From Terriglobia bacterium (GTDB lineage: Bacteria > Acidobacteriota > Terriglobia > Terriglobales > Acidobacteriaceae): 64,000 nucleotides of DNA. Each line of letters begins with the position of its first letter. The first letter of the stretch is position 1. The position numbers were made by a program, and so were the translations under genes. The notes beneath the pieces were generated by a model. The model was not told the origin of the DNA, did no database searches, and saw only the letters and a list, made by a program, of their open reading frames with translations. Positions 14,572-21,512 of the stretch are shown here, piece after piece. Location: the NCBI GenBank assembly GCA_020072645.1, contig JAIQGK010000008.1, positions 1 to 64,000 of the forward strand, read 5' to 3'.

Positions 14572-15249
14572 TTACTGCATCGCTCCCGTGTAAATCGCCA
14601 TGCCCACTACCGCATCCACGCCGATAGCATCCAGTTGGTCCACTTCAGCGCGAGAGCGGATGCCACCGGCCACGATCATTTTATTCTTGGTGAGGCCGGC
14701 TAATTCGCGCGCTATTTCAATGGGAAACCCTGCCAAGGTTCCTTCCGTATCAATGTGCGTATAAAGAAAAGCGCTGCAATAAGGGTCGAGAGCGCGGACC
14801 ATGTCTTTCGGGTCGATTGCCGTGCTCTCCTTCCAGCCCTTGATAGCGACCTTGCCCTGGCGTGAATCGATGGCAAAGGTGAGATGTTCTGTGCCCAGAG
14901 TCTCAGCCGCTTCGTCTGCCAATGAAGTATTAATTGCGCCGTCTTTCAGCAGCGCCGAACCAAAAATTACGCGCTTCGCGCCCAGAGCCAACAGTTCGCC
15001 GGCGCGCGCAACGTCGCGAATGCCCCCGCCTGTCTGGCAGGGAAGGCGTTTGCAAATTGCTGCAATCAATTCACGGTTGCTTCCGTGGCCCATGGCAGCG
15101 TCAAGGTCAATCAACTGGACAAGAGGAAACGTGGAGAAGCGCTCAATCCAATATTCAAAGTCGTCAAACTCCAGGGCTTTCTTTTCTCCCTGGACAAGTT
15201 GCACGATTTTGCCGCCCATTAGATCAATGGAAGGAATCAGCACGGCCAC
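14572..15249 (-). CDS. hisA: Phosphoribosyl-formimino-AICAR ribotide isomerase
   Basis: 225 residues of the (beta/alpha)8 barrel shared with HisF. It begins with [14 protein letters not shown], where the Asp is the general base of the Amadori isomerisation. GGGIRD and [13 protein letters not shown] are the two phosphate-binding loops of the half-barrels, and the second catalytic acid is in YTHIDTEG. Last gene of the his operon, overlapping hisF by 13 nt. Slightly shorter than typical (about 240) but no motif is missing. Confidence 0.94.
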
Positions 15250-16022
15250 CTCATGGGAATGCCTGAGCGAAGAAGCGTCTCCTTGAGTTCACCAATGCCG
15301 TGGGTAGCAAAATGAAAAATTGAGGCCGCCAATGCTGCGTCGGCATGGCCAGCGGAAAAGACATCGACGAAATGCTGTGCGTTGCCCGCGCCGCCGGAGG
15401 CGATCACCGGAATCGAAACAGATGAAGCAACAGCCGATGTAAGCTCGCAGTCAAAGCCCAGGCCGGTGCCGTCGCGGTCCATTGAAGTGAGAAGGATTTC
15501 GCCCGCGCCACGCTCTTCGGCTTCGCGTGCCCACTGCAGCGCTTTCTTGCCCGTTGCAGTGCGTCCGCCGGAGACAAAGACCTCAGCTCTATCTGCCGGA
15601 CCCGTTCCGCGCCGCGCATCAATGGCAACAATCACCGCCTGCGAGCCAAAGCGCCCTGCAATCTCGCTGATCAGCGCTGGATTCGCGAGCGCTGCGGAGT
15701 TGATGCTGACTTTGTCCGCGCCGGCGTCAAAGACCTGGGCAGCATCTTGCAGCGTTCGAATGCCGCCGCCAACGGTAAACGGCACAAAGAGATCGCGGGC
15801 CGTCCGACGAACAGTTTCTGCCAAGGTCTTGCGGCCTTCGTTAGTGGCGGTAATATCGAGCAGCACAATCTCGTCGGCCCCAGCCGAGGCGTGCGCAACC
15901 GCCAACTCGGCGGGATCACCAGCATCGCGCAGCTGCTGAAACTGTATGCCCTTCACGACGCGTCCGGCATCCACATCAAGACAGGCGATGATGCGCTTGG
16001 CCAGGCGTGCATTACAAGGCAC
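15237..16022 (-). CDS. hisF: Imidazole glycerol phosphate synthase, cyclase subunit
   Basis: 261 residues. The barrel has the catalytic aspartates in [15 protein letters not shown] and [10 protein letters not shown], and the phosphate loops FTVGGGIR and VIASGGAGN. With HisH it forms the glutamine amidotransferase-cyclase producing imidazole glycerol phosphate and AICAR. It overlaps hisH by 11 nt, consistent with coupled synthesis of the two subunits. Confidence 0.96.
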
Positions 16023-16599
16023 AGAAATTCTCCAGGATTTTCAAACCTGCTGCAGCGGATTTTTCCGGATGAAACTGCACACCAAAGACATTCTCGCGCT
16101 CCACGGCAGCAGAAAATGCTCCGCCATAATTTGTGCATGCCGTAGTCTCGGCGATCACGGGAGAACGGTAAGAATGGGTGTAATACACAAACGCTCCGCT
16201 GTTCACGCCCTGGAGCAGGCGCGCCCCCGGTCGGACCTCTAATTGGTTCCAGCCGACATGAGGCGACTTTACTGAAGCAGGGAAGCGCGAGCATTCGCCC
16301 GCGAAGAGAGCGGCCCCAGGTGTTTCCGGTGCTTCCGCGCTGCCCGCAAACAGCCACTGCATGCCGACGCAGATTCCCAGAAACGGTTTACCGCTCTTGA
16401 TGACATCAAGCACTGGCGCCCGCAGGTATTCATTGAGCGATTGGCATCGGCTGAAGTGGCCGACGCCCGGCATAACAAGTTTCTGCGCGGCGGTGATCAC
16501 TAAAGGATCGGAGGTCACCTGCGCGTCCTCGCCAAGATGTTCCAGCGCCTTTTTCACCGAGCTAATATTGCCCGCGCCGTAATCCACAATCGCGATCAT
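16012..16599 (-). CDS. hisH: Imidazole glycerol phosphate synthase, glutamine amidotransferase subunit
   Basis: 195 residues, class I glutaminase. It starts with [14 protein letters not shown]; the nucleophile is in [12 protein letters not shown], and the His-Glu pair is in GVQFHPEKS near the C-terminus. It supplies ammonia to HisF. It overlaps hisB by 4 nt upstream and hisF downstream by 11 nt. Confidence 0.95.
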
Positions 16600-17183
16600 A
16601 GAAGGCCCTTGGTGCTCGGCAGCATTCTGGCCAGTTGCTTATCGCGTGAGCAGGCCACGCGCAATGCTCGGGCAAAGGCCTTGAAGAGCGCTTCAATCTT
16701 GTGATGGTTGGAACGTCCATAGACTATCTTGAGGTGGACATTGGCGCGCGCGCCACGAGCAAAGCCTTCAAAGAAATCGTAAACCAGTTCCGACTGCAGA
16801 TCGCCCACCACCCGCGTTTTTACACGAGTATCTACTACTGCGGCGGCACGACCGCTGAAGTCGATCGCGGCGAGACCGAGCGTTTCATCCATCGGCATCA
16901 GAAAATATCCTGCGCGCATGATGCCGCGCTTATCGCCCAGCGCCTTATCAAACGCTTCACCCAGAGCAATGCCCACGTCTTCCACAGTGTGATGCTGGTC
17001 CACGTCGAGGTCTCCGGTGGCTTTCAGCTTCAGGTCGAAAGCTCCATGGCGGGCAAAGAGTTCCAGCATGTGATCCAGAAATCGGATTCCGGTGGAAACT
17101 TCATAACGGCCGCCGCCCTCAATGGTCAGCGCGAGTTTGATCTGCGTTTCTGTAGTCAAACGCGTGATCGACGCTTTTCTCAT
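16596..17183 (-). CDS. hisB: Imidazoleglycerol-phosphate dehydratase (monofunctional)
   Basis: 195 residues. It has the two pseudo-repeats with metal-binding motifs: [15 protein letters not shown] and [16 protein letters not shown] in the first half, and [23 protein letters not shown] in the second. No N-terminal HAD phosphatase domain is present, unlike the bifunctional enterobacterial HisB, so histidinol phosphate must be dephosphorylated by an enzyme encoded elsewhere. It overlaps hisC by 4 nt. Confidence 0.95.
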
Positions 17184-18250
17184 CGCGCTGCCTGATTCGC
17201 CGTGGGAAGTTTAGACAATATCTGCTTGAGTTCGGCCATCAGCCGTTCCATCTCTTGCTGCTTGCCAATGGTGATGCGCACGCAGCCTTCGCAATCTGGG
17301 CGGTCACGCAACGAAATGCCGCGCGCGCGCAAAGCGTCAAGAATGGACTTTTTCTCTTCGCCCAAACGGCAGAGGATAAAGTTGCCATGGCTGGGCCAGC
17401 ACTTGAAGCTGAGCTTTTCCAGTTCCTTGTGCAGCCATTCCCGGCTGGCGATGACCTGCGTAACGTAGTCGGCTACAAACTGGCGGTCTGCCAGCGCTTC
17501 AGCCAGACACTCAATGGCGAACGCATTCACGTTGAAGGGAGAAGCCATGCGCCGCAATACCGATATCTGTTCCACATCGCCTACCATCGCGCCCAGCCGG
17601 ATGCCCGCCAGTCCGTAAGCCTTAGAAAATGTTCGGGCAATGAACAAGTTGGGCAGCTTGCCAACTTGGTCGAGCATGGTCTGGCCATAGAAATCAAAGT
17701 ACGCTTCGTCCAGCAGGATTGCCGCATCAGGCGCTGCCTGGCTGATTTGCATAATCGCTGAGCGCGGCACGTCGACGCCCGTGGGATTGTTGGGATTGCA
17801 GATGACGACGATCCGCGTCTTGGCCGTCAGAGCATTCAGCACGCGCTCCAGAGGGAAACTGAAATCCGGGCCTGCCGGCACACGAACGGCCTTCGCATGT
17901 TCCATCTGGGAAAACACGTCATACATGGCGAACGTCGGGACCACGATGACGATCTCATCCTGCGGCTCAAGATAGGCGCGACAAAGAAGATCAATGGCCT
18001 CGTCCGCGCCATTGGTGAGCAGAAGCTGCTGTGGCGCAACGCCCAGAAAATCTGCCACCAGCTTTTCTCCGGCCTCACGGCGCGGATACAGCGCCAGCGT
18101 GCGCGCATCCATGCTGTTCAGTTTGGCAAGGACGCGCGGCGAGCAGCCCGTAGTGCTCTCATTCATGTCCAGGCGAAGTTCAGTTGTGGGACTGCTGAGT
18201 GGAGAATGGTATTCGCGCATCTCGCGGACGCACTGGCGCGCCTTAAGCAT
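17180..18250 (-). CDS. hisC: Histidinol-phosphate aminotransferase
   Basis: 356 residues, fold type I PLP enzyme. It shows [31 protein letters not shown], the PLP lysine in [16 protein letters not shown], and the late arginine in CVRITIG. It transfers an amino group from glutamate to imidazole acetol phosphate. It overlaps hisD by 8 nt and hisB by 4 nt. Confidence 0.95.
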
Positions 18251-19490
18251 TTGCTGACCTCACTCGAATAGATTCTGCGTGGGCTTTCAGGCCCTCTGCT
18301 TCCGCCAGCGTGATCACCGCGGAAGCGATACGGTCCAGCCCATCGCGTGAAAGCTGCTGGACAGAGATGGTCTTAACAAAATCCTGCACTCCAAGTCCAC
18401 CCCGAAAACGCGCCACACCGCCGGTGGGAAGCACATGGTTAGGTCCGGAAGCGTAGTCGCCCGCTGCCTGCGGGGAATAGTCCCCGATGAAGATCGACCC
18501 CGCATTGTTGATATGCGCAAGGTCTTCTTCATTCACGGTAATGTGCTCGGCGGCAATGCGGTTGGCAAATTCCAGAGCTTGTTCGTGGGATTCGGCCAGC
18601 AGAATTGCGCCGTTTTCTTTGAGAGAAACTTTCGCGAGTTCATTTTGTGTCGCGGCTAGCTTTGCTTCGGTAGCGACCTTTTCCGACAGCGTGGCAGAAG
18701 ATGTGATGAACACGGCCAGCGTGTCGGGGTCGTGTTCTGCCTGGGCGACCAGATCAGCGGCGATGAATCGTGGTTCGCCGCGTTCGCTCACAATCACAAT
18801 CTCTGTCGGTCCGGCAAGAAAGTCGATGCCGCAATCAAAGGCAACGAGCTTCTTTGCGGCGGTCACAAACAGGTTTCCCGGCCCCACGATCTTGTCGACC
18901 TTTTGGATACTTGTTGTTCCATAGGCCAATGCGGCAATCGCTTGTGCTCCGCCGATTCTGTAGAACTCGTGCACGCCGAGGAAATGCGCGGTCGCCAGGG
19001 TCTCTGGGGCCGGGCGGGGAGATACAATGCGAATTTCCCGAACGCCCGCCACCTGTGCGGGGATCACCGTCATGAGCATGGTTGAAGGCAGAGGATAGCG
19101 CCCGCCAGGAACGTAGCAGCCGGCAGACTGTAATGGTCTCACGACCTGCCCGACGTTGATTCCCGGCGCTATGGCGTTGCGCCACTGCTGCGGCTTTTGC
19201 CATTCGCAATATTGCCGTATATTGTCGGCTGCGACCTTCAACGCTTGTTTGAAGACTTCGGGAACCGCGCTCCATGCTTGCTCGAGTTCTGCATCTGCAA
19301 CGCGGAGCGGCTGCTTGGCTTGCAAGCCGTCTAGTTTTTCGGCATAGCGTCGCAAAGCCTTGTCTCCGTTTTTGCGCACATCGACCACGATGCGCGCCAC
19401 CTTTTGCTCCACGCGAGCCAGGTCGGTTGCGCCGCGCTGTTCCAGTGCTCGAACAAAAGCCTCGGCTTTGCGGCCACGCAGCGTCCGCAT
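18243..19490 (-). CDS. hisD: Histidinol dehydrogenase
   Basis: 415 residues. Recognisable segments are CYVPGGRYPLPST, VGPGNLFVTAAK, DFLAGPTEI, and AEHDPDT, followed by EHITVNEED and a GPNHVLPTGG stretch near the C-terminus with the conserved zinc-binding and catalytic His/Glu residues. It carries out the final two NAD-dependent oxidations from histidinol to histidine. It shares 1 nt with hisG. Confidence 0.95.
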   Translation of the reverse strand: MRTLRGRKAEAFVRALEQRGATDLARVEQKVARIVVDVRKNGDKALRRYAEKLDGLQAKQPLRVADAELEQAWSAVPEVFKQALKVAADNIRQYCEWQKPQQWRNAIAPGINVGQVVRPLQSAGCYVPGGRYPLPSTMLMTVIPAQVAGVREIRIVSPRPAPETLATAHFLGVHEFYRIGGAQAIAALAYGTTSIQKVDKIVGPGNLFVTAAKKLVAFDCGIDFLAGPTEIVIVSERGEPRFIAADLVAQAEHDPDTLAVFITSSATLSEKVATEAKLAATQNELAKVSLKENGAILLAESHEQALEFANRIAAEHITVNEEDLAHINNAGSIFIGDYSPQAAGDYASGPNHVLPTGGVARFRGGLGVQDFVKTISVQQLSRDGLDRIASAVITLAEAEGLKAHAESIRVRSANA

Positions 19491-20359
19491 TACAGCACCA
19501 CCTTATTCAATGGATACTCAACAATACCTTCGGCTTTGGCGGCTTTGAGTTGAGGCATGATTTTCCACGCGGTGGATTCCTCAATGATTGTATTCACCGC
19601 CACCCACTCGCCATCGCTCAGGGTGGAAATGGTTGGCTTCTGCAACGCAGGCAGCACGGCCAGGACGCCCGGCAGGTCCTGTTTGCGAACGTTGAGCATC
19701 AGTCCAACGCGGCCCTGGGCATAGATGGCGCCGGAGAGCATCAGGGCAAGATTTTCAATCTTGTGGCGTTTCTCGTCACTTGCCCATGCCGCTTTGTTGG
19801 CGATGAGTTGCGTGCTGGACTCCATAATGGTTTCGATGATGCGCAGGCGGTTGGCGCGGAGAGAGCTGCCGGTTTCTGTGATTTCAACGATGGCGTCGGC
19901 CAGCGTGGGCGGCTTTACTTCGGTCGCGCCCCAGGAAAATTCAACCTTCACCGGAACATTGCGGCCTGCAAAGAAATTACGAGTCACATTTACCAGTTCG
20001 GTGGCGATAATCTTTCCCGCCAGGTCCTCGGCTTTCTTGAATGCTGAATCTTCCGGCACGGCGAGCACCCAGCGCACTTTGCCGAGGCCCTGCTTTGCGT
20101 AGGTCAGTTCGGCGGCGGTTTGCAACTCCAGGCCGCTTTCCACCACCCAGTCCTTGCCGGTAAGGCCGCAGTCGAGCGCGCCGTGATCAACGTAGCGTGC
20201 CATTTCCTGGGCGCGGATCAGCATGCACTCAATTTCCGGATCGTCAGTGGCGGCAAAATACGAACGGCTGCTGGTGTAAACGTTTAGGCCCGCGCGCTTG
20301 AACAGGGCGATGGTTGATTCCTGCAAACTTCCCTTGGGTAACCCGACGCGCAGCTTCAT
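19490..20359 (-). CDS. hisG: ATP phosphoribosyltransferase, long form
   Basis: 289 residues, first committed enzyme of histidine synthesis (ATP + PRPP). The N-terminus [13 protein letters not shown], the [10 protein letters not shown] segment and the PRPP-binding loop in [16 protein letters not shown] are typical. The length, with a C-terminal ACT-like regulatory domain (about residues 215-289), marks the long form, which is feedback-inhibited by histidine and needs no HisZ partner. Enzyme-level feedback would therefore add to the transcriptional attenuation seen upstream. It overlaps hisI by 4 nt. Confidence 0.95.
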
Positions 20360-20697
20360 CGCGGCGCCTCCACGGTGTTGACTGCAATCGGCTCAGTAAA
20401 GCATGACTTTGTGCCGGTGTGGCATACCAGACCGTCGCCTTCCACCTGCACACGGAACAGCAGTGTATCGCGATCGCAATCCGTCAATGCAGAAACTATG
20501 CGGAGCCGGTTGCCGGAGGTCTCGCCTTTCATCCACAGCTTTTGCCGGGTACGGGAATAAAACGTCACATAGCCGGTTTCCACGGTTCGTGCGTAAGCTT
20601 CAGAATTCATAAATCCCACCATCAGTACCTCGCCCGTGGAGTCTTCCTGCACAATGGCGGGGGCCAGGCCATCCATTTTGTCAAAATCAATCTGCAT
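20356..20697 (-). CDS. hisI: Phosphoribosyl-AMP cyclohydrolase (HisI domain only)
   Basis: 113 residues: [42 protein letters not shown], a zinc/magnesium site in [11 protein letters not shown], and a late [10 protein letters not shown]. It hydrolyses the adenine ring of phosphoribosyl-AMP. It lacks the C-terminal HisE pyrophosphatase domain found in fused HisIE proteins, and no hisE lies in the operon. First structural gene; its ATG is preceded by a GAGGA ribosome binding site and, further up, by the attenuator. Confidence 0.95.
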
Positions 20698-20730: not shown

Positions 20731-20768
20731 AAAACAAAAAGCCCGCCGATTTGTTTGAGCCGGCGGGC
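20731..20768 (-). terminator. Attenuator terminator of the his operon
   Basis: On the minus strand GCCCGCCG (20768-20761) pairs with CGGCGGGC (20748-20741) around a 12-nt loop, directly followed by TTTTTGTTTTG. This intrinsic terminator lies between the leader peptide gene and hisI, 34 bp before hisI, so it would stop transcription before the operon. Its 5' arm is also the partner of the antiterminator. Confidence 0.85.
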
Positions 20769-20855
20769 CTTTGATCTTTATAAGTGCGCTGTATTTAACT
20801 TCTACAGGCCTCCGCCGACACGCTCGCCGTGTAATGGTGGTGATGATGGCGATGT
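20757..20855 (-). promoter_or_regulatory. Alternative hairpins of the his attenuator (1:2 and 2:3)
   Basis: Three mutually exclusive pairings can be drawn on the minus-strand RNA. Segment 1, inside the histidine codons (TCGCC, 20852-20848, with flanking ACA), pairs with segment 2 (GGCGA, 20828-20824, and TGT). Segment 2/3: GAGC plus CGGCGG (20825-20812, 4-nt bulge) pair with CCGCCG-GCTC (20766-20757), ten base pairs. Segment 3/4 is the terminator. A ribosome stalled on histidine codons would cover segment 1 and free the 2:3 antiterminator, the classical his/trp logic. The pairings are read directly; the regulation is inferred. Confidence 0.75.
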
Positions 20856-20869
20856 GACAGGGAAACCAT
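20795..20869 (-). CDS. hisL: Histidine operon leader peptide
   Basis: A 24-residue open frame, ATG at 20869 to TAA at 20795-20797, that starts MVSLS and contains HRHHHHH: six histidines in seven codons, five of them consecutive (CAT CGC CAT CAT CAC CAC CAT). It sits between a promoter-like sequence and an intrinsic terminator upstream of hisI. Composition, position and overlap with alternative hairpins identify it as an attenuation leader peptide. An in-frame stop lies 9 nt upstream, so the start is fixed. No Shine-Dalgarno element is seen. Confidence 0.85.
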   Translation of the reverse strand: MVSLSHRHHHHHYTASVSAEACRS

Positions 20870-20877
20870 GAGCGGTT

Positions 20878-20907
20878 ATGCTAGCGAACCTGCCTTGGAG
20901 ATGTCAA
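20878..20907 (-). promoter_or_regulatory. Sigma-70-type promoter of the his operon
   Basis: On the minus strand a perfect TTGACA -35 box (20907-20902) is followed after 18 nt by TAGCAT (20883-20878), a four-of-six match to TATAAT. The predicted transcription start, about 7 nt further, falls at about 20870-20872, within 1-3 nt of the leader-peptide ATG. The leader transcript would thus be leaderless or nearly so. Confidence 0.6.
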
Positions 20908-20941: not shown

Positions 20942-21301
20942 CTATTCCGTATATCCGCGGACCCGCCGTCCTTCCAGCACAAGACCAATAGCGGCGATCA
21001 ATTCGTGAGGAGCATCACTCAAGATAAAGTCCGCGCCGGGAATCTCCGGCGAATGGAAGCACATTTCCAGAATCGGCAAGCCGGGATAGTAGTGGTTCAC
21101 GGCGTGGGCAATTTTGCGCTTCTCCACTCCGCGGAAACCGTGGCAAATAAGGGCCAAGTCCACTTTTTCACTGGTCTTACCCAGGGCTTCAACCTGCGCC
21201 AAAGTCAGCGCGGAGCAAACAATGAATCCTTTATGTTCCAACAGCAGTTGGCGAGTTGTATTGAGGACTTCACTGGAAGAAACCGACAGAATTTTGGCCA
21301 T
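20942..21301 (-). CDS. Degenerate response-regulator receiver-like protein
   Basis: 119 residues from the ATG at 21301; the longer frame to 21421 adds a stretch of unlikely composition. The alternation AKILSVSS..., LEHKGFIVCSA, VDLALICHGF, LPILEMCF, ADFILSD, ELIAAIGLVLEG follows the beta-alpha layout of a CheY-like receiver. However, the N-terminal acidic pair is replaced by SS and the phosphoacceptor aspartate position (after DLALI) reads Cys. It is therefore probably a phosphorylation-independent pseudo-receiver. It has no output domain. No ribosome binding site decides the start. Confidence 0.5.
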   Translation of the reverse strand: MAKILSVSSSEVLNTTRQLLLEHKGFIVCSALTLAQVEALGKTSEKVDLALICHGFRGVEKRKIAHAVNHYYPGLPILEMCFHSPEIPGADFILSDAPHELIAAIGLVLEGRRVRGYTE

Positions 21302-21512
21302 GAATGTTGGGTCAGGTTGTGCTGATTTTTCCGGATTATACCCCAGCATTTGATTTTGAAAAGCCCAGTCCGCTGAATTTCGGGTAAATAAAATAGCAGA
21401 GACTCTGGACGCATATGTCATTGGTACATGGGCCTTGTCACGATTATTGGAAATCTTTTAATATCTACAACGATTCCGAAAGCAGCGGATCGAATCCACT
21501 CAAGGAAGCACT

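Follow-up and report, generated by a model that had tools for sequence, protein, structure and literature searches.

An apparently leaderless candidate histidine attenuator upstream of the hisI-first operon of Acidobacteriaceae

Described attenuators and the leader upstream of hisI

The Escherichia coli hisL message has a 5′ leader before its open reading frame (ORF), a short frame of 16 residues with tandem His codons that stands, together with a terminator, directly before the his operon; the predicted helices other than those holding the His codons lie after its stop codon. Attenuation of E. coli his is described as using a mutually exclusive antiterminator (PMC9413887). The same 2022 study treats his RNA attenuators in Proteobacteria and adds groups in Firmicutes, where leaders with a His-codon ORF have been assigned to hisS paralogues in bacilli and to his genes in Eubacteriales and Erysipelotrichales (PMC2965389, PMC9413887). 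For Acidobacteria, the attenuators predicted in a 2010 survey are given almost no associated function (PMC2965389). Among the literature matches listed we found no His attenuator in Acidobacteriota; Vitreschak 2004 and Lopatovskaya 2010 may mention one, and neither attenuation nor histidine occurs in PMC5900883.

The DNA analysed here, referred to as the window, is a stretch of 64,000 nucleotides from a Terriglobia bacterium of the family Acidobacteriaceae (contig JAIQGK010000008.1). It holds a leader that resembles hisL in having a His-codon ORF and a terminator directly before a his operon, but the peptide is 24 residues long and antiterminator arm 2 lies inside the ORF. Unlike the enterobacterial his attenuator, this leader is also apparently leaderless, and hisI is the first gene of the operon. 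It resembles the Firmicutes leaders in its His-codon ORF with attenuator structures, in a different phylum. A leaderless attenuator RNA is also found in the alphaproteobacterium Sinorhizobium meliloti. There, the trpL RNA begins with the leader ATG, and it differs from the present case in responding to tryptophan and in encoding a 14-residue peptide (PMC7298713). Several leaderless leader peptides are described in Streptomyces lividans as well, among them leuL, trpL, ilvL, thrL and metL, which precede biosynthetic, transport or tRNA-ligase genes; none of the eight leaders named in that source is a His leader, and several are said to be without a typical terminator (PMC8079986). The mechanism class is a textbook one; the new elements are its occurrence in this host group, an apparently leaderless start and an antiterminator arm in coding frame.

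On the minus strand, a gap of 244 bp separates an ORF at 20942-21421, which has no NCBIfam or Pfam match, from hisI at 20356-20697. The gap contains, in order, a sigma-70-like promoter, a 24-codon ORF, a small hairpin and an intrinsic terminator. The initial annotation had described a 240-bp leader; the figure is right for the intergenic gap but not for the leader itself, which measures 172 nt from its ATG to hisI. Every element named in that annotation was found where it had been placed, including each of the pairings drawn. The features are as follows, all on the minus strand.

20902..20907, minus: −35 box TTGACA, from a promoter scan; TTGAC is conserved in relatives
20878..20883, minus: −10 box TAGCAT; transcription predicted to start at about 20871, as judged from spacing
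20795..20869, minus: leader ORF of 24 aa, MVSLSHRHHHHHYTASVSAEACRS, with stop codon TAA at 20797-20795; no Shine-Dalgarno sequence seen
20848..20867, minus: segment 1 (protector), predicted to pair with segment 2 in the free RNA; weak in most relatives
20834..20854, minus: regulatory codons, His-Arg-His5
20807..20828, minus: segment 2, within the leader reading frame, from the predicted fold
20812..20821, minus: conserved antiterminator arm 2, GTGTCGGCGG, columns 76-85 of alignment A1
20789..20807, minus: small predicted hairpin CTGTA/TACAG with the leader stop codon in its loop
20757..20766, minus: antiterminator arm 3, CCGCCGGCTC, overlapping the terminator 5′ arm, columns 175-184 of alignment A1
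20736..20768, minus: intrinsic terminator, arms GCCCGCCG at 20768-20761 and CGGCGGGC at 20748-20741, followed by U5 (sequence and predicted fold)
20356..20697, minus: hisI, first gene of the operon, phosphoribosyl-AMP cyclohydrolase only
14572..20359, minus: hisGDCBHFA, the rest of the operon

The products of hisG, D, C, B, H and F each score above their NCBIfam cut-off, and hisA, which falls under its own, matches PF00977 at 5.6e-47. HisI is not fused to HisE within the operon (14572-20697). A search of the whole genome (G000, 99% complete) gave no match to HisE (TIGR03188), the same search being positive in 13 of 14 control genomes, and the phosphoribosyl-ATP diphosphatase step in this organism may therefore need another enzyme.

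Conservation of the leader peptide, promoter and terminator

The 24-residue peptide with an HRHHHHH run that had been proposed upstream of hisI is present at 20869-20795, beginning with an ATG at 20869. A run in which six of seven codons specify His is unique within all six frames of the window, against about 0.0007 expected from a simple binomial calculation. We followed the leader in relatives using hisI, which gave a match in 151 of 200 sampled family genomes. Thirty loci from this draw, the window's own included, were combined with the best 80 named loci of a species collection, and the resulting 110 loci were reduced to 93 distinct leaders by removing 13 identical duplicates and by a start-codon filter that cost four loci (L011, L048, L059 and L100), all of which carried a His-rich ORF in the first scan. 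Some hisI matches (G150, G168, G340, G348, G414 and others) list one stop within the match, possibly the gene's own stop in an overlong alignment.

A His-rich ORF lies upstream of hisI in all 110 loci and in all 93 distinct leaders (sense upstream intervals, window included), while like criteria returned it in none of 93 antisense intervals and in none of 436 further 450-nt intervals taken from these loci. Because these loci were best hits, we fetched 20 additional family loci from lower down the hit list, and all 20 carry it too. The His runs use both CAT (375) and CAC (218), and the peptide is mostly 23-28 residues long in relatives, with variable length and spacer residues. Only four of the 110 loci, the window itself counted, carry a homologue of the gene that lies upstream of the leader in the window, which indicates that the leader has not been carried along by general synteny. 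The leaders extend to named strains, including Terriglobus roseus DSM 18391 (L105) and Granulicella rosea DSM 18704 (L104).

The promoter was absent from the initial annotation. In the window it is sigma-70-like, with an 18-nt spacer between TTGACA and TAGCAT and a predicted start within a few nucleotides of the leader ATG. TTGAC occurs within 60 nt upstream in 93/93 leaders and lies 34-40 nt before the start codon in 81 of the 93 when the first-choice start is used, or in 89 when the best-fitting in-frame start is taken; once a 16-18 nt spacer and a −10 box are allowed for, the remaining distance to the start would be 6-10 nt in 79 of the 93. Since TTGAC keeps this distance from an in-frame start in 89 of 93 leaders, the leader message is probably leaderless, its start codon at or within a few bases of +1. 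Shine-Dalgarno-like 4-mers are seen in 10 of the 93.

An intrinsic terminator with a U tract had likewise been proposed, and its arms lie at 20768-20761 and 20748-20741 with TTTTT after them. A simple terminator scan of the window did not list this hairpin, probably because it admits no loop longer than 8 nt. All 93 leaders have a terminator hairpin and its T tract, the automatic picks being wrong for L004 and L097, in whose sequences the correct hairpins are visible, and the CCCGC of the 5′ arm begins 22-43 nt past the leader stop. In the terminator, 58 alignment cells are changed on both sides against 24.9 in shuffles; when doubly changed pairs are counted instead of cells, shuffles are not exceeded (281/500). 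Conservation in relatives, which had been suggested as a check, came out in favour of the proposal: the family keeps the terminator (93/93), the His codons (93/93) and, with compensatory changes, the pairing of arms 2 and 3. Hairpins similar to the small one around the stop codon can be seen by eye in relatives, with diverged sequence (GGCC...GGCC in one group).

The antiterminator pairing and the modelled switch

The pairing drawn between 20825-20812 and 20766-20757 is borne out by the sequence, with CGGCGG:CCGCCG and GAGC:GCTC separated by a GTGT bulge. Alignment A1 contains 92 of the 93 leaders, L047 being omitted as identical to L042 over that stretch, and within it 91.2% of the cells of arms 2 and 3 pair. 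Cells changed on both sides number 51, whereas shuffles give 7.3 ± 7.3 and sliding the partner gives no more than 14, and both sides change at five of the ten pairs; variants in relatives include CCGGCGG/CCGCCGG, TCAGCGG/CCGCTGA, TCGGCGG/CCGCCGA and TTGGCGG/CCGCTAA. More weight falls on the slid control and on an out-of-sample test, because the 2:3 pairing was first drawn from these same sequences and because kinship by itself can exceed shuffles without any structure. Out of sample, duplex energies of 16 of the 20 lower-ranked same-family leaders beat shuffles at p<=0.05 for 2:3. By parsimony the best 2:3 pair has 14 state changes, counted on a tree with 20 of its 89 inner branches well supported. 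A strict test of independent pairs yielded just three at the best site, none of which went the wrong way; at site 81/179 a few did, and there were few pairs overall. An antiterminator pairing that excludes the terminator is present in the window and covaries in the family.

Arm 2 ends 9-24 nt before the stop codon (median 18), and its codons spell, for example, VSAE, MPAD, VSAN or VLAA. Its position in the reading frame accounts for the C-terminal half of the peptide being conserved within lineages and differing between them. One leader, L110, has a 10-nt piece of the terminator 5′ arm (GCCCGCAGAT) that occurs twice nearby (L110:1287-1446).

The third pairing, of TCGCC at 20852-20848 with GGCGA at 20828-20824, is complementary as drawn in the window, and the leader as a whole folds well: the region 20900-20725 reaches −61.9 kcal/mol against −44.9 ± 3.8 for shuffles (z −4.5, 0/200). 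Across the alignment, 70.6% of 1:2 cells pair against 64.5% in shuffles and 147 are changed on both sides against 70.7; here, too, doubly changed pairs are no more numerous than in shuffles (422/500). When free nascent RNA was folded up to arm 3, 1:2 dominated in only 24 of 92 leaders and 2:3 in 62. The 1:2 pairing proposed in the initial annotation is well predicted for the window but not for most relatives.

A ribosome was then modelled on the RNA, with an assumed footprint of 12 nt downstream of the first base of the stalled codon and of 15 nt upstream of the stop. The first fold limited to arm 3 counted any upstream partner of that arm, and the later one isolates 2:3. With the ribosome on the His codons and RNA present up to arm 3, 2:3 exceeds 0.5 for at least one stall position in 91 of 92 leaders, the exception being L110, and averages 0.89 over stall positions. 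In the window, the free nascent RNA is modelled with 1:2 at 0.72 and 2:3 at 0.03; 2:3 rises to an average of 0.64 and a maximum of 0.97 under stalls and falls to 0.18 with the ribosome on the stop codon. As modelled, these free, stalled and stop values match the logic expected of attenuation. In 54 of the 92 leaders 2:3 still forms with the ribosome on the stop, which is possible because arm 2 ends a median of 18 nt before it.

Equilibrium folding of the full-length leader was rejected as a model of the switch: the terminator stays above 0.5 at all modelled stalls in 69 of 93 leaders, a count in which L004 and L097 were scored on wrong hairpins. With the terminator favoured at equilibrium despite a stalled ribosome, the mechanism must rest on co-transcriptional timing.

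Mechanism, alternatives and spread in the phylum

We consider it very likely that the leader controls the histidine operon by ribosome-mediated transcription attenuation. The sequence itself shows an ORF, a terminator and a 2:3 pairing that covaries, each conserved in the family; we infer where transcription starts, that translation is leaderless and coupled to transcription, and that the leader responds to histidine. We propose that transcription begins at the leader ATG or a few bases from it, and that the first ribosome would load on the leaderless message. When charged tRNA-His is scarce, this ribosome would stall on the His codons, leaving the downstream, in-frame arm 2 exposed to pair with arm 3 as it emerges; the terminator would be blocked and hisIGDCBHFA transcribed. 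When histidine is plentiful, the ribosome would cover arm 2, arm 3 would pair with arm 4 and transcription would end before hisI. The outcome would be decided by timing, that is, by whether the ribosome is over arm 2 as arm 3 emerges. The description of the attenuator as classical in the initial annotation calls for some qualification, given a message that looks leaderless, with arm 2 in frame and a 1:2 pairing that is weak in most relatives.

In the enteric case, the absence of translation acts in reverse, and the operon is not turned on. Because arm 2 lies in the reading frame and the message appears leaderless, we tentatively raise the possibility, which we hold to be no better than a minority view, that the attenuator in this family works without a protector helix and that the first ribosome is itself the switch. 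Passage of the ribosome over arm 2 would then give termination, and a stalled or missing ribosome would give readthrough, so that absent translation would turn the operon on in most of the family. In the window itself and in some congeneric leaders, the models predict that the 1:2 helix wins.

Three other explanations of the leader were weighed against ribosome-mediated attenuation. Termination would release a short leaderless mRNA for a His-rich peptide, and roles in trans have been reported for the S. meliloti trpL products rnTrpL and peTrpL (PMC7298713); the leader might thus serve mainly as a trans-acting small RNA, or as the message of a functional His-rich peptide, perhaps a metal-binding one, with attenuation secondary or absent. 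We regard this as improbable, given that the ORF precedes hisI in the family loci examined, that the peptide varies in length and in its spacer residues, and that its C terminus (VSAE, MPADC, VLAAVSG) differs by lineage in step with arm 3, which points to a constraint on the RNA. The equilibrium preference for the terminator in 69 of 93 leaders, even with a stalled ribosome in the model, would also suit constitutive partial termination, with His codons that are a relic or that act by translation speed alone. Against this, the His codons are conserved together with an arm complementary to the terminator 5′ arm, with which that arm co-varies, and we think it quite improbable that partial termination is the explanation.

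Control of the leader by a T-box or another described RNA element found no support, and we judge it very improbable indeed. No Rfam family reached its gathering score in the window or in the 20 other loci scanned, the T-box covariance model included, and a permissive scan of the leader was also without a T-box. That scan gave His_leader (RF00514) at 19.6 bits, against a threshold of 49 bits; Thr_leader and His_leader matches of about 20 bits lie far below threshold and were taken as reflecting generic leader shape. By its proposed mechanism the element would work like a His attenuator; it is not a detected Rfam member. If ribosome-mediated attenuation holds, Acidobacteriota, which are common in soils, would gain a well-supported regulatory RNA of known signal, and His attenuation would be extended to another phylum in a hisI-first layout that current Rfam models miss. 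It would also offer a naturally occurring case of leaderless translation that has to be coupled to transcription. For the leucine, branched-chain and tryptophan genes of the same genome, a narrow scan covering four of six loci detected no suitable codon-run ORF with a promoter.

In a sample of the phylum, hisI was matched in 150 of 247 genomes, and 50 regions from 49 genomes outside the family were fetched. They include 20 of the 22 closest outside HisI matches; the other two lay too close to the end of a contig. Eighteen of the 20 regions, representing eight families, showed no his gene ahead of hisI, and every one of the 18 carries a His-rich leader; in the remaining two, hisI is last and the stretch holds no His-rich leader. 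Under a strict scan, 16 of the 18 outside leaders have a hairpin terminator, and nine have TTGAC 37-41 nt upstream of the start. The 2:3 pairing goes beyond shuffles in only five of the 18, a low count due in part to a scripted choice of arm 3 that is doubtful in some leaders. No leader was seen in 24 of the 50 outside regions, many of which stop short of the operon start. Four more distant loci (L133, L135, L149 and L182) have no leader, though no his gene was found upstream of their hisI, so that hisI without a leader peptide also exists in the phylum.

One of the 110 loci, L100 (CAJCHN010000069.1), is labelled Rhodanobacteraceae, yet its hisI is of the acidobacterial type with a His-rich ORF upstream; it is probably a mis-binned contig. 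In a distant acidobacterial family (f21), where hisG stands ahead of hisI, a His-rich leader precedes hisG in eight of the 11 genomes fetched, or in eight of the nine whose hisG fell in the stretch (L131, L177-L181, L184 and L185), with clear terminators in L179, L180 and L185. These leaders differ from those of the window's family and possibly have a separate origin.
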